A stretch of DNA of 64,000 nt from a virus: the IMG/VR virus record IMGVR_UViG_3300047548_000496, positions 27,903 through 91,902 of that record; one strand, 5' to 3'. The position numbers were made by a program, and so were the translations under genes. Below, in pieces: positions 10,973 to 58,818 of this stretch (positions within the stretch are counted from its first letter, which is position 1; each line of letters begins with the position of its first letter). The notes below the pieces were generated by a model, which saw nothing but the letters and a program-made list of their open reading frames with translations, was not told where the DNA came from and did not search any database.

Positions 10973-11533
10973 ATGGCGGCGGATATAATGATTGATATTG
11001 AAAGTTTGAACACAACACCTGATTGTGTTATTCTATCTATCGGCGCGGTTAGATTTGATCCTCGAGGCAACGGTGTTGTTGAACGATTAGAACTTAAACC
11101 TACAGTCGAGGATCAAACTGAAATATATAATAGGAGTATTAACGATGATACAATCAGATGGTGGTCAGAACAAAATCCTGCTGCCCTTGAAGAAGCATTC
11201 AGCGAAGAAGGTAGAATCCCATTTGCCGAATGTATGGAGATCCTATACAAGTTTTGTTGGAATCGCCGTGCTGTGTGGAGTAATGGTGCCCCCTTCGATT
11301 TGGTCGTTATGGAACATGCTTGGAGACAAACAAGCGATAAACCTAATCCCATCCCCTGGCCTTTCTGGACAATGCGAGACACAAGAACACTGTGGGAAAT
11401 CGCAGGAGTCAAACTCAAAGACGGAGGACACGTTACAAGTCACAAGGCTGTAGAAGATGCTGAACGACAAGCCATCGTTGTTCAACAAGCATACATGAAA
11501 TTAATGAAAGCAGGATTGGCAGAATCACGATGA
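10973..11533 (+). CDS. DEDD 3'-5' exonuclease, DexA / Rv2179c-like
   Basis: 186 aa. Exo I is MIDIES with the D-x-E pair near residues 8-10, followed by SIGAVRFDPRG. Exo II is NGAPFDLVVMEHAW, and exo III is SHKAVEDAERQA with the H and D. This is the RNase-H-fold exonuclease group that contains T4 DexA and the Rv2179c-like exoribonucleases. It degrades DNA or RNA from the 3' end with two metal ions. Ribosome site GGAG lies 6 nt upstream. It ends in an ATGA overlap with a zinc-binding protein gene. Confidence 0.88.
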   Translation: MAADIMIDIESLNTTPDCVILSIGAVRFDPRGNGVVERLELKPTVEDQTEIYNRSINDDTIRWWSEQNPAALEEAFSEEGRIPFAECMEILYKFCWNRRAVWSNGAPFDLVVMEHAWRQTSDKPNPIPWPFWTMRDTRTLWEIAGVKLKDGGHVTSHKAVEDAERQAIVVQQAYMKLMKAGLAESR

Positions 11534-11736
11534 ATGTCGAAAGAGAAAACACTTGGAGAACATTGCAAGGTCTTAAACCTATACAATCTTGGAAATGTAG
11601 ACTTGGATGGCATCGTTGGACTAATTATGAAATTCACGATAGGTCACATGATTTTATGGGACCAGTTGCAAGATGCCATTGTGCTGATTGCGGATTACCT
11701 AGAATAGAGCCTCCCTACACAAAGAGTAAAAAATGA
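11530..11736 (+). CDS. small zinc-binding protein (68 aa)
   Basis: Contains W-K-C-R-L-G-W-H-R-W near residues 21-30 and C-H-C-A-D-C-G near 48-54, which together supply C/H and CxxC zinc ligands. The layout resembles DUF1660-type phage proteins (C-x-x-G-H-x-W ... C-x-x-C-G). Function unknown. It overlaps both neighbours by ATGA. Confidence 0.7.
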   Translation: MNVERENTWRTLQGLKPIQSWKCRLGWHRWTNYEIHDRSHDFMGPVARCHCADCGLPRIEPPYTKSKK

Positions 11737-12305
11737 AACTAGATGCTGATATTGACATTGACTTTGGTGACAGAGATAAGTTGTTGAAACTTATTGCTCA
11801 TACATCTGCGGCTATGCGTAATGTTAAACCCATGCGTAAACATAACACGGGTGTCTATGTTACGGACATTCCGTATGATTCAGTAAATGACATGGCTAGT
11901 ATTGATTACACCGAGGCTGAAAAACGTGGTTATTTTAAACTAGACTTGTTAAATGTTCATGTTTACGAGCAAGTACGTGATGAACAGCATTTAGTTGAAT
12001 TGATGCAAGAACCAGACTGGTCTAAATTAAATGATAAAGAATTTGTTGAAAAACTGATTCACTTAGCGAATCATTATAATTCTATACAAAAAATGCCTGA
12101 ACCCATTGATAGTATCCCTAGACTAGCAATGTTCTTAGCCGCTATTCGTCCAGCTAAAAAGCATTTGATTGGATTACCCTGGAAAGAAGTCGCAAAGACT
12201 ATATGGGATAAAGGTGATGATGGGTACAGTTTTAAGCGTTCGCATGCCGTTGCTTACGCACATTTGGTAGTAGTTCATATGAATCTACTTACGGCATCCT
12301 CTTAA
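11733..12305 (+). CDS. mini DnaE-like protein: catalytic palm part of Pol III alpha
   Basis: 190 aa that read as a condensed C-terminal palm of bacterial DnaE. It opens with DADIDIDFGDRDKLLKLI, matching the DnaE P-D-x-D-x-D-F motif with the first two catalytic Asp (around D8 and D10). Then come HNTGVYV (DnaE H-x-G-G-V-x-I), G-Y-F-K-L-D-L-L-N with the third Asp (D71), A-A-I-R-P (DnaE A-L-x-R-P-G-P) and SFKRSHAVAYA (168-176; DnaE F-N-K-S-H-x-x-A-Y-A). The finger inserts, beta-binding and OB regions are missing. The preceding DnaE motif GRGS is in another gene at 55654. Activity is inferred, not shown. Confidence 0.8.
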   Translation: MKLDADIDIDFGDRDKLLKLIAHTSAAMRNVKPMRKHNTGVYVTDIPYDSVNDMASIDYTEAEKRGYFKLDLLNVHVYEQVRDEQHLVELMQEPDWSKLNDKEFVEKLIHLANHYNSIQKMPEPIDSIPRLAMFLAAIRPAKKHLIGLPWKEVAKTIWDKGDDGYSFKRSHAVAYAHLVVVHMNLLTASS

Positions 12306-12669
12306 CTAACGTAATGCTCTTGCGTTTGGTCCTACGCTTGTTTAGTTCACTGATACTACATATAGGACCATGAATAATAGTCAGACTTTTATTGTTAAAA
12401 GTCCTTAAATAGGGCTTGAAAATACTCCATTCATCTTTCAGGAATAGGTTTATGGGGATAAGTCTATTACTTTCCCACCACCAAATATCTCCTAATTCTA
12501 GGAATTTTTCTTTAATTAGAGGGTCTACTATGGCCCCATAATCGTATATTGTAGTGACAACATCATCCCTATTCTGTACTATACCCACGTAATCTTGGTT
12601 TGAGTGCGAACATACTGTTATGAACGGGTGATTTTCACTTAATTTTTTAAAAAATTCGTTGTGTATCAT
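12289..12669 (-). CDS. conserved phage protein, reverse strand (126 aa)
   Basis: Conserved-looking protein with SNQDYVGIVQNR, then KFLELGDIWWWESNRLIPI, FLKDEWSIFKPYLRTF and a basic end KRRTKRKSITLVKR. I believe relatives occur in other T4-like phages but know no function. A late promoter (GATAAATA, 12689-12696) lies inside the longest open frame, so the ATG at 12669 is chosen over one at 12711. It is convergent with and overlaps the DnaE-like gene by 17 nt. Confidence 0.68.
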   Translation of the reverse strand: MIHNEFFKKLSENHPFITVCSHSNQDYVGIVQNRDDVVTTIYDYGAIVDPLIKEKFLELGDIWWWESNRLIPINLFLKDEWSIFKPYLRTFNNKSLTIIHGPICSISELNKRRTKRKSITLVKRMP

Positions 12670-12688
12670 TATTATTTTTAGACCGAAA

Positions 12689-12696
12689 TATTTATC
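12689..12696 (-). promoter_or_regulatory. T4-type late promoter
   Basis: GATAAATA on the reverse strand, 19 nt before the ATG at 12669. It is divergent from the late promoter at 12722. Confidence 0.55.
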
Positions 12697-12721
12697 ATTG
12701 GACACAACCATAATATATTTT

Positions 12722-13562: not shown

Positions 13563-14540
13563 ATGTTTGATATTCTGTCTTTAATTCCAGGCAAGAAAAA
13601 ACTTACCCACGGTGGCTGGCATAGCTTTAATGCTATCTGCTGTCACCATCGTGGGCACACTGCTGACAAACGAGGTCGCGGTGGTATTAAGTTTGACGGA
13701 CAAACAAATTGGTCATATCACTGCTTTAATTGTAACTTCAAAACAGGCTTTGTGTTGGGTAGAAGCATTAGTAGAAATACGAGACAATTATTGTCTTGGT
13801 GCGGTGTAGATGAATCGCAAATTGGCAAGTGGAGTTTAGAAAGTTTACAACAAAAAGATTTCTTGGATTTCACACTGCCCAAGAAAAAAGAAAAGAAGAT
13901 AAAATTCAAAGACCATCAATTGCCCGAAAATGCTGTGTTGATTGATGAAAATAACCCATCGCACAAAATATATATAGACTATCTCAGGGCCAGAGGCATA
14001 AGTAATACTGAATATCCTTTCATGGTTACTACTGATGACGTTGGTCGAATGGGTAACCGCATCATTATACCATACACTTATAAAAATAAGATTGTAGGAC
14101 ATACAAGTAGATTCTTAGATAATAAAATACCCAAATACATTAACGAACAACAGCAAGGTTATGTGTTTGGTTATGATTTTCAATTACCCGATCAAAGTGT
14201 TACTATATTGGTCGAAGGTATCTTTGACGCATTGAGTTTAGGTTGTTGTGCATTGACACACAATTCAATCAATGAAGGTCAAGCAGAATTACTAGCACAA
14301 TTAAATAGACAGATTATTTTTGTCCCAGACCGAGACAAATCAGGACTTGAAACTTGTGAGAGAGCTATTCAATTAGGTTATAGTGTCAGCATCCCACATT
14401 GGGATAAAGACATAAAAGATGTAAATGATGCCGTTGTAAGATATGGTAGACTACCAACTTTACTAAGTATATTAGAGTCTGCTACAATGAGCAAAATTAA
14501 AATAGAATTGAGGAAGAAACAAATTGAAAAAGGACTATGA
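13563..14540 (+). CDS. DNA primase, gp61-like
   Basis: 325 aa (T4 gp61 342 aa). The N-terminal zinc-binding domain uses C26, C27/H28 and C54-x2-C57. The Toprim core has LVEGIFDA with E218 and FVPDRDKSG with D256 and D258. It makes RNA primers on the lagging strand and works with the gp41 helicase encoded next. The start is the ATG at 13563 with the promoter 6 nt upstream and no ribosome site. It overlaps the helicase gene by 17 nt. Confidence 0.94.
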   Translation: MFDILSLIPGKKKLTHGGWHSFNAICCHHRGHTADKRGRGGIKFDGQTNWSYHCFNCNFKTGFVLGRSISRNTRQLLSWCGVDESQIGKWSLESLQQKDFLDFTLPKKKEKKIKFKDHQLPENAVLIDENNPSHKIYIDYLRARGISNTEYPFMVTTDDVGRMGNRIIIPYTYKNKIVGHTSRFLDNKIPKYINEQQQGYVFGYDFQLPDQSVTILVEGIFDALSLGCCALTHNSINEGQAELLAQLNRQIIFVPDRDKSGLETCERAIQLGYSVSIPHWDKDIKDVNDAVVRYGRLPTLLSILESATMSKIKIELRKKQIEKGL

Positions 14541-15975
14541 AGATAATAGTTACCCAGTTGAGAAGCAAAAATATTTTTTACGAATGATGTTAACTAACGC
14601 AGAGTTGTTTACCCGTGTTACTAACATCTATAATGCAATCAATTTTGATAAATCAATCAGACCTGTTGCTGAGTTTATCAAACACCACGCTGACGAATAC
14701 AAGATACTACCTGAGTTTGAACAAGTAGAAGCCGTTACAGGGATTAAACTTGATCCTATTCAAAACTTAAATCAAGGACATTATGATTGGTTTTTGGAAC
14801 AGTTTGAAAAATTTACTAAACGACAAGAACTAGAACGTGCGATTTTAAAGAGTGCTGACTTGCTTGAAAAAGGTGAATATGATCCTGTTGAAAAATTAAT
14901 CAAAGATGCGGTACAAATAAGTCTACAAAAAGACATGGGTATGGATTACTTTGCTGATCCACGTGGTCGGTTGTTAGCATTGAAATCTAATAATGGTCAA
15001 GTCAGTACAGGTTGGCCTAGCATGGACAAGAAACTATATGGTGGTTTTAACCGCGGTGAACTGCAAATCTTTGCAGGAGGCTCAGGTTCTGGTAAGAGTT
15101 TGTTCATGCAAAACTTAGCAGTTAATTGGACTAGTATGGGACTGAACGGAGTATATATCACACTAGAACTTAGTGAAGGCTTGTGTTCTATGCGTATTGA
15201 CTCCATGACCACTGAAACATCTAGTCGTGAAATTTTCAAATCAATTGATGATATTGAAATGAAAATTAAAATGATGAGTAAGAAGTATGGTAAGTTCCGT
15301 GTCAAATATATGCCGGCACAAAGTAATGTCAACGATATCAGAGCATATTGTAAAGAACTACAGATCCAAACAGGTATGAATATTGACTTTTTGTGTATTG
15401 ACTATTTGGACTTATTGATGCCAGTATCTGCAAAAGTCAGTCCGAGTGATTTGTTTGTTAAAGACAAATATGTTGCAGAAGAAGTGCGTAACTTAGCAAA
15501 AGAGTTAAATGTATTATTAGTAACAGCATCGCAGTTGAATCGTAGTGCTGTAGAGGAGATTGAATTTGACCACAGTCATATTAGTGGCGGTATTAGTAAA
15601 ATCAATACTGCGGACAATGTATTTGGAATCTTTACATCCAGGTCTATGCGTGAGCGCGGGCAGTATCAATTGCAATTGATGAAAACTCGTAGTAGTAGTG
15701 GTGTAGGACAAAAGATTGAACTTGAATTTAATGTAGAAACATTAAGGATTACCGATCCTGATCCTGAAGGTTACGGGGAACAACAATCTAAGTTTAAACC
15801 TAGTCCCAGCCCCAATGACATTATGAATAGGTTAAAGCCCCAATCTACAATAGTTTCTACTGAACCTATAGTTGACCAGAATACAGGAGAAGTCTTGGAA
15901 CCGTCAAACAAGAAGGTTGTTGTGGACGTTCAGGGATCAAAACTCAAGACTTTATTGAATAGTTTAAAGAAATAA
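14524..15975 (+). CDS. replicative DNA helicase, gp41-like (DnaB family)
   Basis: 483 aa. Walker A is GGSGSGKS (185-192) after FNRGELQIFA, as in RecA-fold DnaB helicases. DnaB-type motifs follow: VYITLELSEG, FLCIDYLDLL (Walker B) and VTASQLNRSA. The unusual TTG start at 14524 is supported by GAGGAAG at 14510-14516, 7 nt upstream. It unwinds the parental duplex 5'-3' on the lagging strand. It is co-transcribed with primase; the C-terminal 60 residues are disordered. Confidence 0.95.
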   Translation: MKKDYEDNSYPVEKQKYFLRMMLTNAELFTRVTNIYNAINFDKSIRPVAEFIKHHADEYKILPEFEQVEAVTGIKLDPIQNLNQGHYDWFLEQFEKFTKRQELERAILKSADLLEKGEYDPVEKLIKDAVQISLQKDMGMDYFADPRGRLLALKSNNGQVSTGWPSMDKKLYGGFNRGELQIFAGGSGSGKSLFMQNLAVNWTSMGLNGVYITLELSEGLCSMRIDSMTTETSSREIFKSIDDIEMKIKMMSKKYGKFRVKYMPAQSNVNDIRAYCKELQIQTGMNIDFLCIDYLDLLMPVSAKVSPSDLFVKDKYVAEEVRNLAKELNVLLVTASQLNRSAVEEIEFDHSHISGGISKINTADNVFGIFTSRSMRERGQYQLQLMKTRSSSGVGQKIELEFNVETLRITDPDPEGYGEQQSKFKPSPSPNDIMNRLKPQSTIVSTEPIVDQNTGEVLEPSNKKVVVDVQGSKLKTLLNSLKK

Positions 15976-32278: not shown

Positions 32279-33376
32279 ATGGATGAAATTATTAATATTC
32301 TGAATAAGTGTTCTTTTAAAGGAAAATATGTTACTGTAATTAAACAGGCTAATTTATGGCATTTGATAGAAAATAGCGTTGGTACTGTAGAAGTGTCCGA
32401 TCCAGAAAAAGTTTATTTGTATCTTAACCCTCTTGCGGAAATAACCTGTTCATCCGGTAATAAAAGGAAGTTCAAAGGTGTCCGAATCGGGTACAACTTA
32501 TATTGTGAAAATAAAAAATGCGATATTTGTAATACAAAGAAAAAGCAGGCAGTTAAACAAGGTGTATTTGAAAAATATGGAGTAGACAATGTAGGAAAAC
32601 TACAATCAGCGATTATTAGTAGAGATAAATTTTGGAATGACAAATCTGCCATCGAAGATGCTAATAGTAAAAGAAAACAAACTAATTTGACAAAATATGG
32701 ATGCGAGAATGTTTTTCAGAATGAAAAAATTAAAGAAAATATTAAAAACCTATTCATAGAACGATACGGAGTAGAAAATCCGTCACAATCAGAAATTATT
32801 AAGGAAAAAAAGAAAAATACTTTGACCGAGAATTACGGAGTTCCTTTTGGGCTACAATCACCTATAATCAAAGAAAAAATAAAGACTACGAATACTCGTA
32901 AATATGGCGTTCCGCATATTATGCAGGTTAACGAAATAAAAAATAAAATGATTGCAACCAAAATAGCAAAGGGCTCTTTTGGAAAAAGTAATTCTTCAAT
33001 AGAGGCTACTACCTACTTCAAAAACTATATAAAGACAAAGGGATACAATCTATCACAGGTAGCGTTTAATGATCCTAAAAATGGATTGTATGAATGGGGA
33101 TTCAGGTTCGATAGATGGTACTTGTTTGATTTTGTTGCTTTTGAATTAGGTCATAGAGGAGACTATAAAAAAATTATAGAAATAATAGAATATCACGGAC
33201 CATTCCACTATACAGAATCCGATGTGATGATTAGGGGATCTGAAAAAGCCTATCCATGGAAATCTAATAATACTACAATTTTAGAATCTTACCAAAGAGA
33301 TATACAAAAACAGGAATATGCTGTAAAATATCTTACTACAAACTACAATGTTATATGGAGCGAAAATGACAAGTAA
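32279..33376 (+). CDS. putative homing-type endonuclease with KYG-V repeats
   Basis: 365 aa. Residues 85-230 hold about five 25-residue repeats, each starting K-Y-G-V (or R-Y-G, N-Y-G) and then x2-x-Q-x3-I-K-E-K, which look like DNA-reading modules. The C-terminal domain has FDRWYLFDFVAFELG and IIEIIEYHGPFHY, the D ... E-x-H pattern of Vsr-like or PD-(D/E)XK endonucleases, followed by W-x-S and a basic end. A CxxC pair (CDICNTKKK) lies before the repeats. The layout is that of a selfish free-standing endonuclease. Its expression is guarded by a hairpin. Confidence 0.72.
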   Translation: MDEIINILNKCSFKGKYVTVIKQANLWHLIENSVGTVEVSDPEKVYLYLNPLAEITCSSGNKRKFKGVRIGYNLYCENKKCDICNTKKKQAVKQGVFEKYGVDNVGKLQSAIISRDKFWNDKSAIEDANSKRKQTNLTKYGCENVFQNEKIKENIKNLFIERYGVENPSQSEIIKEKKKNTLTENYGVPFGLQSPIIKEKIKTTNTRKYGVPHIMQVNEIKNKMIATKIAKGSFGKSNSSIEATTYFKNYIKTKGYNLSQVAFNDPKNGLYEWGFRFDRWYLFDFVAFELGHRGDYKKIIEIIEYHGPFHYTESDVMIRGSEKAYPWKSNNTTILESYQRDIQKQEYAVKYLTTNYNVIWSENDK

Positions 33377-36170: not shown

Positions 36171-39100
36171 ATGGCATTAGTATCTCCAGGCGTAGAAGTT
36201 ACAATCACAGACCAAAGTCAGTATCTTCCAGCCCCAACAAATTCAGTCCCTCTAGTCGTTTTAGCAACAGCGCAAAACAAAGCTAATGCTAGTGGTACGG
36301 GTGTAGCAGCCGCAACAACTGCTGCAAACGCAAATAAATTATATCAAGTAACAAGTCAGCGTGATTTAGTTAACTTATACGGAAAGCCGTTCTTTTACAC
36401 AACAACCAATGGTACTCCTATTCAAGGTTATGAATTAAACGAATATGGTCTATTAGCGGCATATTCATTATTGGGAGTTACAAACCGTTGTTACGTACTC
36501 CGCGCTGATGTTGATTTAGCTAGTTTAGTTGGTCAGACAAGCCGTCCAACTGGTGCACCAGAAAATAATACTTATTGGCTAAATACCTCAACATCTACAT
36601 GGGGTATCTATGAATTTAATTCTACAACTGGCTCGTTTACACTTCAAAATCCTATTGTAATTACAGACTCTGGTTCGTTGTCTGGTGGTTTTCCTCTAGA
36701 TAGCATAGGAAATATAGGCGATTACGCCGTTAACGCTATTCAACCAATCGGGGCGCCTGCTGCAACGACACCGAAGACATTTTTCTATAAAACTTCAAAC
36801 AATGTTTGGGTAACTTTAGGTGGTGGCGCCTGGAGATCAGATATACCTACTGTACAAGGTACTATTTCTAATCCAACACTAAGTCCAACTAGTAATTTTA
36901 CTATCAATGTAAGTGGAATTTGGACAGCTACTGTGAGCGTTGTAGGAACTTCAGTTAATGACGTTGCTACTGCTATTAACAACTTAAACACGCCTACAGT
37001 TATTGCTAGAGTTGTAAGTGGAAAATTACAAATCTTATCAAACCAAATTACATCATCAGGAATACCTTCAATCGTATTAACAGACGGAACAAATACTCCA
37101 TTGGCTAATTTGGGTATTGATGCTGGTACTTATTATCAGCCTGCTCTTGCGTATGGAACTTCCGCACAAATGCCATTATGGTCAGCAAGTCAAACATATC
37201 CTAGACCAACAGGTTCAGTATGGATTAAAATCGGTATTGCTGGAAATGGTTTATATCCTCAACTATCACAATATAAAACTTCTACAGCGTCTTGGACAAC
37301 AAAAAATGTTTCACAGTATAATTCTGATTGGGCAGCCATTGCTAATTTAGACTCTACTGGCGGCGCCCTTATCCCTGCTGGAACAATCTATGGTCAATAT
37401 GATTTTGATGGACAGATATTGACTTCCCCTTACTATTTGTGGGAAAGAATTGCAACAGGTCCTACTGTTGTTACCGGTGATAATAATAGTCCTCTATTCA
37501 ACTCTACAAATTTAGGAACTGCAGGCCCTTATACTTTAAATTTAAGAGTTAGTGTTCCCGCAAGTACTTCATTATCATCAGTATATACAGTTACAATACC
37601 TAATAATGCTGACGCTACTGATTTTGTTACAGCATGGTTCGCAGCAAATATACCATATACATCTGCTAGTGTAACAACAGATGGTGCTATTCAATTGACT
37701 CATACAGAAGGAGGCGTAATTATATTAGGCGACTTGTCAAACCAAGTAAGTAATGGAGTTATCGCTGAAGCTGGATTTTCGATTGGTTCGACACCAGGTG
37801 TAAAATATGGACCAGTGAATCAATATTCATGGACTAATCTTGCATCATCAGGCGGAAGTGGTACTGGGGCAAGATTTGATGTGCTAGGAATCGGTGCCGC
37901 TTATTATCTAAATGGAGATGGAATTAATGTAGGTGGTAGTGGATATACCGTAGGGGATATCATTACTATTAGTGGTACTATCCTAAGTGGTTCCTCCCCG
38001 GCAAATGACTTAAGATTAGTGGTGACATCTGTAGGTGCATCTAATGCTGTTACAGGAGTCGCATATTATTCAGGTAGTGGTGTGGGCGGATATACTACTC
38101 AATTGAGTAATTGGGTAGAATTTGCTTATACTAGCAACGAAGGTGCCCCTGTAATTAATCCTGTAAACAATACCAATTGGTTCTACTCAGTAATCGATGA
38201 AGTCGATATCATGGTTCAAAAGAACGGTTCTTGGGTTGGTTATAGAACAACTGCTTATGATTTTAACGGACATCCGGCAGCTAGTGGATCTGCAAACACT
38301 GATCCAAACGGACCTATTATTTCAGGATCTGCGCCTACTACACAAAGTGATGGTACATCGCTTGTTTGGGGTGATCTATGGATAGACACAAGTGATTTAG
38401 AACTATATCCTGTTATATATCGTTGGCAAGAGGTTAATGGTATCGATCAGTGGGTACTAATAAACAATACAGACCAAGTTAGCCAAAATGGTATAGTATT
38501 TGCTGACGCTCGTTGGTCTAGTTCTGGTGCTATTGATCCTACAAATGATCCCATACCAACAATTACTAGTTTATTAACAAGTAACTATATTGATTTAGAT
38601 GCACCGGAGCCAACTTTATATCCACAAGGCATGTTGTTGTTTAACACTCGTCGTAGTGGTTACAATGTAAAACAGTTTAGAACTAACTATTTTACTGGTG
38701 CTAATTATCCAGATGCAGGATCATATAATCCAGCACAACCTACTAATACTAGTAACTTACCGGCGTACAGCTATACATGGGTTTCTGTAAGTGGTAATCA
38801 AGCAAACGGCGCCCCTTATATGGGCCGCAAAGCGCAGCGTGCAATGGTAGTCCAATCTTTGAGAGCCGCTATTGATACTAACTTAGCGATACGTGATGAA
38901 GATAATTATTTTAACTTAATTGCTTCACCTAACTACCCTGAATTACAACCTAACATGGTTGTATTGAATGCGGATCGTGGTGAAACAGCATTTATCGTTG
39001 GTGACACCCCATTGGGTCTACCTGATGATGCTACTGCAATTCAAGCCTGGGCAACTAATGCAGCAGGTGCAACAAGTACAGGAGAAGAAGGCTTAGTAAC

Positions 39101-39767
39101 ACGCAACACATATTTAGGTTTGTTCTATCCAAGTGGAATTACTAACGATTTAGATGGCAACGAAGTTGTTGTACCAGCAAGTCACATGATGTTACGAACA
39201 ATATTAAACAGTGATACTAAATCTTATCCTTGGTTAGCACCTGCAGGTACTCGTCGTGGTAACATTGATAACGCATTGAATATTGGTTACTTAGACCGCG
39301 ATACCGGAGAATTTGTTGCTATTAAAACACGAATTGGTATCCGCGATGTTCTATATATTAATCAAATCAACCCAATGGTATTCTTTACTGGTGTTGGATT
39401 GTTGAACTATGGTAACAAAGTAAGTTTCAACTCACAATCTGCGTTAGATAGAATCAACGTTGCTCGTTTGATTAACTATGTACGTCGTCAGTTGACAATT
39501 GCTGCTCGTCCGTTTGTATTCGAACCTAATGACCAGCTAACACGTAATGAAATAGCAGGAGTTGTACAAACATTAATGGTTGACTTAGTTGCTAAACGAG
39601 GTATTTACGACTATCTAGTTGTATGTGACGAAAGTAACAATACACCGGCTCGTATTGATAGAAACGAACTATGGATTGATGTTGCAATTGAGCCAGTCAA
39701 GGCTGCTGAATTCATCTATATCCCTGTTCGTGTATTGAATACAGGTGAAATTTCAGGTGTAGTTTAA
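36171..39767 (+). CDS. tail sheath protein, gp18-like, greatly enlarged
   Basis: 1198 aa, nearly twice T4 gp18 (659 aa). The N-terminus MALVSPGVEVTITDQSQYLP with YGLLAAYSLLGVTNRCYVLR, and the C-terminus TRIGIRDVLYINQINPMVFF to FIYIPVRVLNTGEI, are typical of T4-like sheaths. The 500-600 residues between are Ser-, Thr- and Gly-rich domains, with PTGAPENNTYWLNTSTSTWG-type and P-x-P-x-G-S-V-W-I repeats that look like added surface domains. It contracts to drive the tube through the envelope. A terminator follows. Confidence 0.96.
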   Translation: MALVSPGVEVTITDQSQYLPAPTNSVPLVVLATAQNKANASGTGVAAATTAANANKLYQVTSQRDLVNLYGKPFFYTTTNGTPIQGYELNEYGLLAAYSLLGVTNRCYVLRADVDLASLVGQTSRPTGAPENNTYWLNTSTSTWGIYEFNSTTGSFTLQNPIVITDSGSLSGGFPLDSIGNIGDYAVNAIQPIGAPAATTPKTFFYKTSNNVWVTLGGGAWRSDIPTVQGTISNPTLSPTSNFTINVSGIWTATVSVVGTSVNDVATAINNLNTPTVIARVVSGKLQILSNQITSSGIPSIVLTDGTNTPLANLGIDAGTYYQPALAYGTSAQMPLWSASQTYPRPTGSVWIKIGIAGNGLYPQLSQYKTSTASWTTKNVSQYNSDWAAIANLDSTGGALIPAGTIYGQYDFDGQILTSPYYLWERIATGPTVVTGDNNSPLFNSTNLGTAGPYTLNLRVSVPASTSLSSVYTVTIPNNADATDFVTAWFAANIPYTSASVTTDGAIQLTHTEGGVIILGDLSNQVSNGVIAEAGFSIGSTPGVKYGPVNQYSWTNLASSGGSGTGARFDVLGIGAAYYLNGDGINVGGSGYTVGDIITISGTILSGSSPANDLRLVVTSVGASNAVTGVAYYSGSGVGGYTTQLSNWVEFAYTSNEGAPVINPVNNTNWFYSVIDEVDIMVQKNGSWVGYRTTAYDFNGHPAASGSANTDPNGPIISGSAPTTQSDGTSLVWGDLWIDTSDLELYPVIYRWQEVNGIDQWVLINNTDQVSQNGIVFADARWSSSGAIDPTNDPIPTITSLLTSNYIDLDAPEPTLYPQGMLLFNTRRSGYNVKQFRTNYFTGANYPDAGSYNPAQPTNTSNLPAYSYTWVSVSGNQANGAPYMGRKAQRAMVVQSLRAAIDTNLAIRDEDNYFNLIASPNYPELQPNMVVLNADRGETAFIVGDTPLGLPDDATAIQAWATNAAGATSTGEEGLVTRNTYLGLFYPSGITNDLDGNEVVVPASHMMLRTILNSDTKSYPWLAPAGTRRGNIDNALNIGYLDRDTGEFVAIKTRIGIRDVLYINQINPMVFFTGVGLLNYGNKVSFNSQSALDRINVARLINYVRRQLTIAARPFVFEPNDQLTRNEIAGVVQTLMVDLVAKRGIYDYLVVCDESNNTPARIDRNELWIDVAIEPVKAAEFIYIPVRVLNTGEISGVV

Positions 39768-55653: not shown

Positions 55654-56160
55654 ATGAGAACTGACATATACGGGCAACAAATCTATGATGAAATGGAGCT
55701 ATGCTTACTGTATCTGCAGGATCCCTCACGTAAACTAAAAAAAGTTTTCGTAGAAAAAGAAATCAAGTTTGACGATACCCTACAACTACAAAACATCCCC
55801 GAACTTATAAAATACAACAGTAACAACATTTCTATAGAAGAATTTGACACTATAAATCAAAATAATTGGTTTATGCCCGAAGAATATAAATCAATGGACA
55901 TAGCCAAATTTGTATTAGACCAATGCAAAAATGAAGCAGAATTGCAAAGGGCAGGCGAAGAACTGTTGTTGTTTCAAGAAAGGAACATGTTTACATTGTT
56001 GTGCTACTTAAAATATTTGGTAGATACAATGCGTAAAAATAATATTGTCTGGGGTGTCGGGCGAGGATCGAGTGTTGCTAGTTTCGTATTATTTTTGTTG
56101 GGGGTACACCGTATAAATAGTTTGTATTACGACTTGTCTATCGCTGAATTCTTAAAATAA
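55654..56160 (+). CDS. mini DnaE-like protein: GRGS part of Pol III alpha
   Basis: 168 aa. The C-terminal half reads like DnaE just before its catalytic motif: ELLLFQERNMFTLLCYLKYL, then N-I-V-W-G-V-G-R-G-S-S-V-A-S-F (GRGS at 136-139), LFLLGVHRINSLYYDLSIAE and F-L-K at the end. Bacterial DnaE has V-G-P-G-R-G-S-A-A-G-S-L, then D-P-L-x-Y-x-L-x-F-E-R-F-L. The protein stops just where DnaE continues to P-D-x-D-x-D-F, which begins the protein encoded at 11733. The N-terminal 95 residues resemble neither PHP nor another known domain. It has its own leaderless-type early promoter. Confidence 0.82.
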   Translation: MRTDIYGQQIYDEMELCLLYLQDPSRKLKKVFVEKEIKFDDTLQLQNIPELIKYNSNNISIEEFDTINQNNWFMPEEYKSMDIAKFVLDQCKNEAELQRAGEELLLFQERNMFTLLCYLKYLVDTMRKNNIVWGVGRGSSVASFVLFLLGVHRINSLYYDLSIAEFLK

Positions 56161-56169
56161 GGAGAAATT

Positions 56170-56511
56170 ATGAAAAATTACAGAACCGCAATGGGAAAAA
56201 CTGTAGATATGGCTGCATTAGCAGCAAAAAACGAACATACTAGAGCCGTGGGTAATATGAAAGTAAATGCCCGAGGTGACAAAATTGATAGCACCGGACG
56301 AGTCATACAACCAGTAAACGAGCGTGTAACACAAAATTATTCTCACACTGTAGGTAATAGGTCAGCGAATGCTAGTCGTACCCAATCAACTCCGCCCAAA
56401 CCTAAAATTGTAGAAGAACTTACTCCTCAAGAACTTGAGTTGGAAGACAGCCTAGAGGATGATTTAGAAGTTGAGAAAATTAAAGCACAGGAACTAAAAG
56501 GAAAGAAATGA
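56170..56511 (+). CDS. conserved T4-like phage protein (113 aa)
   Basis: Y-R-T-A-M-G-K-T-V-D-M-A-A-L-A-A-K-N-E-H-T-R-A-V-G-N-M is followed by VNARGDKIDSTGRVIQPV. This N-terminal block is one of the best kept among T4-like aquatic phages, yet its role is unknown. The tail is acidic and disordered. RBS AAGGAG lies before the ATG. It overlaps the co-chaperonin gene by ATGA. Confidence 0.74.
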   Translation: MKNYRTAMGKTVDMAALAAKNEHTRAVGNMKVNARGDKIDSTGRVIQPVNERVTQNYSHTVGNRSANASRTQSTPPKPKIVEELTPQELELEDSLEDDLEVEKIKAQELKGKK

Positions 56512-56888
56512 GCGAATATTCTAAACCAGCATTCAGTCCCACGAAAGTAGACAAATTACGGTTCATGTACGACAACATTATTGTTTCGGATATGAAATTT
56601 GATGAACGCATCAGTCGAGGAGGTATCGTTCTTTTGGACGATGACAAGAAAAGTTCTGGTATTCGCCCTCGTTGGGCAAAGATTTATGGTTTGGGTCCTG
56701 ATGTAAAAGATCCACAACTTGAAATTGGGAAATATATTCTTATCAGTCACGGTCGTTGGACACGAGGTATCACTGTTGAAACTCCAGAGGGCAAAGTCAC
56801 GTTGCGTAAAGTAGATCCTAATGATATACTACTTGTGTCGGATGAGCCGATGGAAGATGAAACAATGAGTGATAAGGTTATAGCATGA
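56508..56888 (+). CDS. co-chaperonin, gp31/Hsp10-like
   Basis: 126 aa. YDNIIVSDMKFDERISRGGI is the mobile-loop region. D-D-D-K-K-S-S-G-I-R-P-R-W-A-K-I follows, then GKYILISHGRWTRGITVETP and TLRKVDPNDILLVSDEP, the GroES-type beta barrel of T4-like phages. It works with host GroEL; T4 gp31 is needed to fold the major head protein. The loop R-I-S-R-G-G-I-V-L keeps the hydrophobic I-V-L contact. In an operon with the genes on both sides. Confidence 0.92.
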   Translation: MSEYSKPAFSPTKVDKLRFMYDNIIVSDMKFDERISRGGIVLLDDDKKSSGIRPRWAKIYGLGPDVKDPQLEIGKYILISHGRWTRGITVETPEGKVTLRKVDPNDILLVSDEPMEDETMSDKVIA

Positions 56889-57211
56889 TGAAATGGTTTT
56901 ATAGATGGTTGGCTAGCAAGATTCAAGACAGTCAATATGCTGACGAGGAAGCACAAAATATCGGACTAATAATTGGTTCAAATAAAGTAAATAGAGTACG
57001 CAAAACTACCACCGTCCGTGAAAGTGATGAACTTGGCTCTGAACCAATTGTATTCAAAATGTTCAAAGCAAGTGGTGGCTGGGCTATTGAGTTCAGACAT
57101 TATGATAACAGAAATGACAGGGTAGATACCAATCTTTATGTTGTCAATGATGAAGAAGAACTTGGTAGTCATATTTCTAAAATTATTACTATGGAGGCAT
57201 TAAAAAGATGA
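56885..57211 (+). CDS. conserved hypothetical protein (108 aa)
   Basis: MMKWFYRWLASKIQDSQYAD, then an alpha/beta body (EPIVFKMFKASGGWAIEFRH, Y-D-N-R-N-D-R-V-D-T-N-L-Y-V-V). The amphipathic Trp-rich N-terminus could bind membranes or a partner. No known family. It overlaps the co-chaperonin gene and couples by ATGA to the Bax-inhibitor gene. Confidence 0.68.
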   Translation: MMKWFYRWLASKIQDSQYADEEAQNIGLIIGSNKVNRVRKTTTVRESDELGSEPIVFKMFKASGGWAIEFRHYDNRNDRVDTNLYVVNDEEELGSHISKIITMEALKR

Positions 57212-57894
57212 GTTATTCAGATACATTAGTATATCGTAGTGCGGCTCAAATCAATGAAGCAATGAGTCGTGTGTATGGCTACATGGGACTTGCTACATTA
57301 GTTAGTCTGTTTGTAAGCTATGTTGTAGGTTCTAGTCCAGAACTAGTACAATTTTTCTTTACAGGCTGGATGCGCTATGTAACTATTTTTTTACCATTGG
57401 TGGCAGTATTCCCAATTACCATTGCTTTGAACAGTAACCCACCAAAAGAAATGGCATTATTCATGCTAGTTCTTTTTGCTGGTATAATGGGCTTGAGTTT
57501 TGCAGTAATTTTTGCAGTTTATACAATGGCAAGCATTGTTAGTGCATTTATGGGTTCAGCAGTATTGTTTGGAACTATGAGCTTTTATGGTTATTTTACC
57601 AAACAAAGTTTAGACAGTGTGGGCAAATTCTTATTTGTAGGCTTGATTGCAGTGGTAATTGCTAGTATAATTAACGTCTTTGTGGGTAGTACCGTAGCAC
57701 AAATGGTAATTTCAGCAATTGCAATTATTGTATTCTTGGGACTTACTGCATACGATACACAAAAAATCCGTGAACAATTAATGGATTCTAAGGAGTCAAC
57801 TGTTGCAGAAGTATCTGGAGCATTGACATTATACCTAGATTTTATTAATATATTCTTGTCGTTGTTACAACTTTTTGGCAATAAGAAAGATTAA
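57208..57894 (+). CDS. Bax inhibitor-1 family membrane protein
   Basis: 228 aa with seven hydrophobic segments and short loops. The N-terminus S-R-V-Y-G-Y-M-G-L-A-T is the family start (x-K-V-Y-x-L-x-x). F-F-x-Y-F-T-K and T-A-Y-D-T-Q-K-I match the bacterial YccA/YbhL type, and the end LYLDFINIFLSLLQLFG is typical. In bacteria YccA slows the FtsH protease; BI-1 proteins also act as pH-sensitive calcium leaks. In an operon with co-chaperonin and gp44. A role in holding back host membrane proteolysis is inference. Confidence 0.92.
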   Translation: MSYSDTLVYRSAAQINEAMSRVYGYMGLATLVSLFVSYVVGSSPELVQFFFTGWMRYVTIFLPLVAVFPITIALNSNPPKEMALFMLVLFAGIMGLSFAVIFAVYTMASIVSAFMGSAVLFGTMSFYGYFTKQSLDSVGKFLFVGLIAVVIASIINVFVGSTVAQMVISAIAIIVFLGLTAYDTQKIREQLMDSKESTVAEVSGALTLYLDFINIFLSLLQLFGNKKD

Positions 57895-58818
57895 ATGAAG
57901 AATCAACTTTGGGTAGAAAAGTATAGGCCCGCTTCGGTAGACGAATATGTTTTTGTCGATGATCGTCAACGAGAGCAAGTCGCACAATGGATTAAAGACG
58001 GGTCTATACCCAATCTATTATTCAGCGGGGACCCTGGCACTGGTAAAACTACACTAGCTAAAGTTCTAATTAAAGAATTAGGTGTAGAAGATTATGATGT
58101 GATGGAAATCAACGCAAGTCGTGATAACGGCGTTGACTACATCAGGTTCAAAATTGAGGGCTTTGTGCAAACTATGCCTTTCGGTAAGTTCAAAGTGGTT
58201 TTGTTAGACGAGGCAGATTATCTGTCCCAGCCCGGTCAAGCTATCTTGCGTGGATTGATAGAATCATATTCTGACACCGCACGATTCATATTGACTTGTA
58301 ATTATGACTACAAAATCATCCCTGCATTAAAATCTCGCTGTCATAATATGCATATTGCAAAAACTGATATGACAGAATTCACTGCAAGGGCGGCAACTGT
58401 ATTAGTTAACGAGAATGTAGAATTTGATTTAGATACACTGGATAACTATATTCGTGCCACATACCCGGATTTGCGTAAATGTTTAAATCAACTTCAAGTT
58501 AACAGCAATACAGGTAAGTTGTTATCTGCACAAGCACAAGGTTCTAGTGAACATGAATTATTGTTAGAGGCAACACAATTGTTTAAAGCTGGAAAAATTC
58601 TTGAAGGAAGACAACAGTTAATGCAATATATCGCACTTTATCCTACACGAATTGAGGATACATATAGGTGGATGTACGACAATTTAGATTTGTGGGGCAA
58701 AGATCAGGAAAAGAAAGATGCAAGCATTATCATTATACGAAATGGTCTTGCGAATCTTCCATTAGTTGGAATCCCCGAAATTAGCATGGCAGCAACATTA
58801 GTGGAGTTAACAAGTTGA
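57895..58818 (+). CDS. clamp-loader large subunit, gp44-like
   Basis: 307 aa (T4 gp44 319 aa). W-V-E-K-Y-R-P start; Walker A GDPGTGKTT (45-53); Walker B LLDEAD (103-108); L-T-C-N-Y sensor 1; A-L-K-S-R-C arginine finger. This AAA+ ATPase opens the sliding clamp together with gp62. The partner gene is about 52 kb away. It starts at the codon next to the Bax-inhibitor stop, so the two are co-translated. Confidence 0.95.
   Translation: MKNQLWVEKYRPASVDEYVFVDDRQREQVAQWIKDGSIPNLLFSGDPGTGKTTLAKVLIKELGVEDYDVMEINASRDNGVDYIRFKIEGFVQTMPFGKFKVVLLDEADYLSQPGQAILRGLIESYSDTARFILTCNYDYKIIPALKSRCHNMHIAKTDMTEFTARAATVLVNENVEFDLDTLDNYIRATYPDLRKCLNQLQVNSNTGKLLSAQAQGSSEHELLLEATQLFKAGKILEGRQQLMQYIALYPTRIEDTYRWMYDNLDLWGKDQEKKDASIIIIRNGLANLPLVGIPEISMAATLVELTS

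Follow-up and report, generated by a model that had tools for sequence, protein, structure and literature searches.

A split C-family polymerase core, probably accessory, encoded by two distant genes in T4-like phages

Two small proteins encoded 43.3 kb apart on the same strand of a viral DNA are almost certainly the halves of a single C-family polymerase palm, and it is very likely that the two chains bind each other. We propose that they probably constitute a two-chain minimal C-family accessory polymerase and not the main replicase. The DNA under study, called the window throughout, is a stretch of 64,000 nucleotides that comprises bases 27903–91902 of a 91.9-kb IMG/VR virus record, itself probably a fragment, from a T4-like giant phage. 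The two genes are referred to below as the N half and the C half:

55654–56160, + strand: 168-aa N half of the split DnaE-type (C-family) polymerase core, with an ATG start.
11733–12305, + strand: C half of the split C-family polymerase core; 190 aa, opening with MKLDADIDIDF.

The open reading frame of the N half contains WGVGRGSSVASF and its product has the C-terminus YYDLSIAEFLK. The protein comprises the helical region and the N-terminal part of the palm, with the GRGS nucleotide-binding loop at residues 134–140, and it stops at EFLK. It matched the Pfam family PF07733, DNA_pol3_alpha (Pol III alpha NTPase domain), with an E-value of 2e-9 and 37.9 bits against a cut-off of 23.9, and PHROG 11127 ‘DNA polymerase’ with an E-value of 1e-38. 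The C half contains the three metal-binding Asp residues, the C-terminal part of the palm and reduced fingers, and it matched PHROG 11778 ‘DNA polymerase’ (E 1e-59). A Pfam search with the C half alone gave no match, PDB sequence searches with it as a single sequence or a small profile found no polymerase, and only 24 columns could be aligned by hhalign when a single DnaE sequence was the target.

The relationship to DnaE was examined by profile-profile comparison, in which 69 N halves and 76 C halves were each compared with a profile of 11 diverse DnaE sequences. The N half aligned with residues 236–393 of E. coli DnaE (E 1.1e-10), and residues 33–186 of the C half aligned with residues 507–775 (E 4.4e-11). 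The aligned parts adjoin without overlap, the seam running from E. coli residue 393 to the PDxDxDF motif at 400–406. DADIDIDF of the C half corresponds to PDFDVDF at E. coli 400–406, a stretch that the local alignment does not cover and that was paired by visual inspection, across the deletion of the thumb. AlphaFold (AF2) models were made of single chains only, with each half folded apart, and had pLDDT values of 90.8 for the N half and 94.2 for the C half. When these models were searched with Foldseek, the first 13 PDB matches were all Pol III alpha or PolC for the N half (E 0.12–1.5) and all Pol III alpha for the C half (E 0.003–0.43). The E-values are weak because the pieces are small, and the matches after the first 13 were weaker and mutually unrelated.

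The active-site residues are preserved across the two chains. R137, G138 and S139 of the N half, which are equivalent to E. coli R362, G363 and S364, were invariant in 69 of 69 relatives. In the C half, D6, D8 and D71 correspond to E. coli D401, D403 and D555, the metal-binding aspartates of DnaE (PMC3919608), and D10 corresponds to D405, which is specific to DnaE and replaced by Asn in PolC (PMC3919608); all four were invariant in 76 of 76 sequences, as were K69 and H171. The equivalents of E. coli K553, H511, R639, P640 and H760 were likewise invariant in the C halves, and that of F756 is also present in the C half. On the template side of the fingers, the C half keeps the F-x-K/R-x-H motif with its invariant H171, and the invariant pair R139-P140. 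His787 in the fingers of M. tuberculosis DnaE1 adjoins the nascent base pair (PMC8922275), and it would be the equivalent of the conserved fingers His of the C half. As none of the motif residues varies among the aligned relatives (69 for the N half, 76 for the C half), the motif match is not a matter of chance.

These results bear out most of what an earlier note on this DNA had proposed. The 168-aa open reading frame with the GRGS segment and the YYDLSIAEFLK end is present as it was described there, and it matches PF07733 and PHROG 11127. The catalytic Asp motif does open a separate gene 43 kb away (11733–12305), and the break falls between two conserved motifs, at E. coli 393 and 400–406. 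The suggestion of one split polymerase core as opposed to unrelated scraps was upheld by the comparison of profiles and structures that the note had recommended for each protein, which placed the two on adjoining parts of DnaE and of the C-family palm, with C-family matches in the PDB. The pair was also found in related phages, as described below.

The two chains differ from DnaE at positions that may affect nucleotide binding. The residue at E. coli 390 was Arg in 11 of 11 DnaEs compared, very divergent phage enzymes included, and it is Glu in 68 and Asp in one of the 69 phage N halves. The equivalent residue in the window is E165, and an alignment with named relatives shows Glu in each of its six rows. 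E165 thus presents a consistent charge reversal at an otherwise conserved site. Misalignment is unlikely here because the spacing from the GRGS serine is identical: S139 to E165 in the N half and S364 to R390 in E. coli are both 26 residues apart and align with no gap. The equivalent of R390 in the Thermus enzyme is R452, which we take to contact the incoming nucleotide. In the C half, E. coli residues 407–506 (about 100 aa), presumably mostly thumb by published domain limits, are reduced to about 20 residues. About 90 residues of the fingers are absent as well, among them the LRRAMGKK segment and E. coli R709; position 709 was Arg in 11 of 11 DnaEs compared, and its segment is deleted in the phage C halves. 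As R390 is replaced by Glu or Asp and the R709 segment is deleted, nucleotide binding must differ from that in DnaE, and activity cannot be assumed.

Other parts of DnaE are missing altogether. The alignment of the C half ends at E. coli 775, and the (HhH)2 and later DnaE parts lie beyond both chains. PHP and (HhH)2 domains are nearly universal among bacterial C-family enzymes (PMC3919608). Searches for PHP and DNA_pol3_finger in the source record and ten relatives gave no match, and the positive controls matched. These 11 records therefore gave no support to the idea that the remaining parts of Pol III alpha are encoded as further pieces elsewhere.

With no thumb, no fingers Arg and an acidic residue at a position occupied by Arg in all DnaEs compared, it is possible, albeit doubtful, that the pair represents a C-family-derived enzyme with changed chemistry or substrate. 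Such an enzyme would be a nucleotidyltransferase of two chains, or a polymerase specialised for short patches or lesions, with no counterpart among characterised Pol III alpha enzymes, and its partner in one phage clade would be a DEDD exonuclease. We consider it unlikely that the pair is a C-family palm derivative that has given up DNA synthesis, a two-chain nucleotidyltransferase which still binds metal and phosphate and either carries out another reaction (terminal addition, nucleotide sensing, modification) or serves the PolB replisome as a regulatory subunit that binds DNA. The loss of the thumb and of the large fingers segment with R709, the consistent replacement of the Arg at 390 by Glu or Asp and the presence of PolB for replication are all consistent with such a function. 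However, the retention of the template-side fingers residues (F-x-K/R-x-H, H171 and R139-P140), the presumed equivalence of the fingers His to M. tuberculosis His787 beside the nascent base pair (PMC8922275), and the clamp loader, primase and helicase genes nearby argue against it.

The genes around the two halves were surveyed at 80 IMG/VR loci per half. Their neighbors in the window are as follows:

10973–11533, + strand: DEDD-family 3'-5' exonuclease (Rv2179c-like, DexA-like); PF16473, E 1.3e-31.
12289–12711, − strand: convergent gene of PHROG 11637 (no assigned function), sharing 17 bases with the end of the C half.
13563–15975, + strand: genes of a Toprim primase and a DnaB-type helicase, lying downstream of the C half; PHROG 47 and PHROG 19.
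56170–56888, + strand: PHROG 14844 protein (no assigned function), then a GroES/gp31-like co-chaperonin family protein (PHROG 931).
57895–58818, + strand: clamp loader large subunit (T4 gp44-like); PHROG 168, E 1e-71.

The convergent PHROG 11637 gene lies beside the C half in 77 of the 80 loci, and the same tail-to-tail arrangement occurs in PA5oct, Atu_ph07, Phosso, SCTP-2, 121Q and GAP32. The C half is also followed by a structural protein in 72 loci, a primase in 64 and a helicase in 59. The DEDD exonuclease gene adjoins the C half in 54 of the 80 loci, 66 of the 80 having at least 1.2 kb of upstream sequence. The exonuclease is thus a candidate for a lineage-specific proofreading or processing partner of the C half in the clade of the window. 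As a general partner it was rejected: PA5oct, 121Q, Atu_ph07 and Phosso do not have it next to the C half, and a search for an Rv2179c-like match found none in PA5oct, Atu_ph07, SCTP-2 and Vibrio 2.275.O. On the other side, the PHROG 14844 gene and the GroES-like gene directly follow the N half in 80 of 80 loci each, and a clamp loader is near the N half in 72 of 80. Since the two halves reside in different conserved neighborhoods, their co-expression is not evident. Between the N half and the clamp loader, the window encodes a Bax1-I (BI-1/TMBIM) membrane protein (57208–57894; PF01027, E 8e-54); this gene was matched in 17 of 80 related loci and has no PHROG match.

The T4-like genes in the window are those for a tail sheath, a UvsW-like helicase, a DnaB helicase, a gp44-like clamp loader and PhoH. 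The tail sheath protein (36171–39767; PHROG 10581) is very long at 1198 aa, and its Pfam match is at the C-terminal end only. There is also a homing-endonuclease-like gene at 32279–33376 (PHROG 3339, E 4e-19).

That a C-family core would be an extra enzyme beside a family-B polymerase, as the earlier note supposed, agrees with the relatives, where PolB was found in 17 of 19 records, all 8 named phages included. A search for PolB in the 91.9-kb source record found none; the record stops some 8 kb past the N half, and in three related records (G003, G004 and G005) PolB lies 25–30 kb beyond the N half. The PolB of Atu_ph07, PA5oct, Slicko01 and two IMG/VR records likewise occupies two open frames, and a split PolB with an intein has been reported in MIJ3, a relative of PA5oct (PMC6892783).

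It is improbable that the pair acts as a main replicase or as a co-replicase, the copying of the two strands being divided between the C-family core and PolB. This arrangement was raised as one possibility by Iyer et al. 2021 (PMC7824862), and it would fit the location of a clamp loader gene close to the N half and of primase and helicase genes close to the C half. Nevertheless, PolB is present in relatives, and the pair has no clamp-binding, tau-binding or thumb domain. The word replicase in the earlier note is not supported: the pair lacks the PHP, thumb and clamp-binding/HhH parts and some of the fingers, and two DnaE-conserved arginines have been changed or lost.

The co-occurrence of the two genes was examined with a joined query, which matched 99 phage records in 188 places, giving 89 records with both halves. 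No fused or adjacent form was seen, as no place in the 99 records covers 80% of the joined query, and the other half was never found within the fetched flanks of the 160 IMG/VR loci from both scans. The single-place records listed included ordinary full-length DnaE genes and Bacteroides phages with a long unannotated protein. In one of the latter, Bacteroides phage SJC03, an unannotated gene of 3825 bp (L251 4666–8490) has a GRGS-region match of 41 residues, and its long product may be a divergent full-length C-family enzyme. Both halves are present, in one copy each, in all 7 named genomes tested. Twenty larger records contain one C half in 20 of 20 and one N half in 16 of 20. In three of the four exceptions (G009, G010 and G011) the C half is too near the contig end to include an N half about 43 kb downstream; in the fourth (G012), a fragment, the contig end does not account for the absence. 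The distance between the halves ranges from about 11 kb in Slicko01, which has a 141-kb genome, to 224 kb in Phosso. The IMG/VR scans confirmed at least 597 N-half and at least 491 C-half stretches, and one group of marine jumbo phages is reported to carry PF07733 at a frequency of 51.9% (PMC9123017). The median dN/dS was 0.079 and 0.093 for the two halves, indicating purifying selection on both.

These data bear on whether the two proteins belong together. Their genes are 11 to 224 kb apart and in different neighborhoods, as might be expected if the proteins had only their ancestry in common and were functionally unrelated to each other. Such a scenario is very improbable, as they supply complementary, non-overlapping parts of one active site and co-occur almost perfectly. 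That they are two decaying, functionless fragments of a captured host DnaE, as the shortness of the pieces relative to DnaE (1160 aa) might suggest, is practically untenable, being already contradicted by dN/dS values of 0.08–0.09 where neutral rates would be needed, by active-site residues invariant over widely diverged phages, and by single copies kept together in 89 phage records with conserved gene order.

We therefore return to the two-chain accessory polymerase as the preferred explanation. In the proposed mechanism, the two separate proteins most likely associate into one palm domain. The 168-aa chain would supply the GRGS nucleotide-phosphate loop, and the 190-aa chain would supply the three metal-binding Asp residues and the cut-down fingers that hold the template and the new base pair. 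We favor, with some caution, the view that this complex is an active accessory DNA polymerase. Having no thumb, PHP, clamp-binding or tau-binding part, it would probably add few nucleotides each time it binds. Copying of the genome would be left to the T4 gp43-like family-B polymerase found in relatives, and the pair may act in gap filling, recombination or lesion repair, possibly together with the neighboring DEDD exonuclease in the clade of the window.

The profile-profile, structural, co-occurrence and selection evidence confirms a split C-family polymerase that had earlier been proposed from sequence alone, and the pair is widespread, extending to a phage of 141 kb. An active pair would be a C-family polymerase of very small size, its two chains totalling about 360 residues, and would offer a natural means of testing the minimum of Pol III alpha that is needed. 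The consistent change at E. coli R390 offers a concrete residue to test. Neither biochemical work on a split Pol III alpha nor a report of its role was found in the literature searched, which included few subscription journals.

The earlier note knew of no described phage system of this kind, which proved incorrect. Iyer et al. 2021 (PMC7824862) describe a split minimal Pol III alpha encoded by distant genes in T4-like jumbo phages with PolB, and a 2018 report had already assigned gp316 of Agrobacterium phage Atu_ph07, an N half, to Pol III alpha and noted its conservation in RaK2-like phages (PMC6102473). The group 2.2 jumbo phage system of Iyer et al. (PMC7824862), who list Atu_ph07 in the group, consists of the same two proteins as those described here. 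There, the N protein is NTP-binding and the C protein is Mg- and template-binding; here, the GRGS loop is in one protein and the Asp triad and fingers are in the other. There is no difference in kind, and the pair is an instance of the system described in 2021 (PMC7824862). Four features go unmentioned in the sections of PMC7824862 consulted: the Glu or Asp at E. coli R390, the absence of the thumb and of the R709-containing part of the fingers, the exonuclease neighbor in the clade of the window, and the pair in the 141-kb non-jumbo phage Slicko01.

Atu_ph07 gp316 (N half) and gp074 (C half) are 42% and 45% identical to the window proteins, respectively. Its halves are 182 kb apart, and it has no Rv2179c-like exonuclease match. 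In RefSeq NC_042013.1, gp074 (L005 2950–3525) starts 27 codons late and thereby omits the DxDxD motif. An upstream in-frame ATG gives MKNIPDIDIDF and restores the catalytic motif.

The phage pair and E. coli DnaE have in common the GRGS loop and the equivalents of D401, D403, D405, K553, D555, H511, R639, F756 and H760. Unlike E. coli DnaE, which has 1160 aa, the pair is made of two chains and is devoid of the PHP, thumb, HhH/clamp, OB and tau parts. The full-length DnaE proteins of Streptomyces phage Wakanda and Chryseobacterium phage MA9V-3 are also C-family enzymes, but each is a single long chain with the bacterial architecture.
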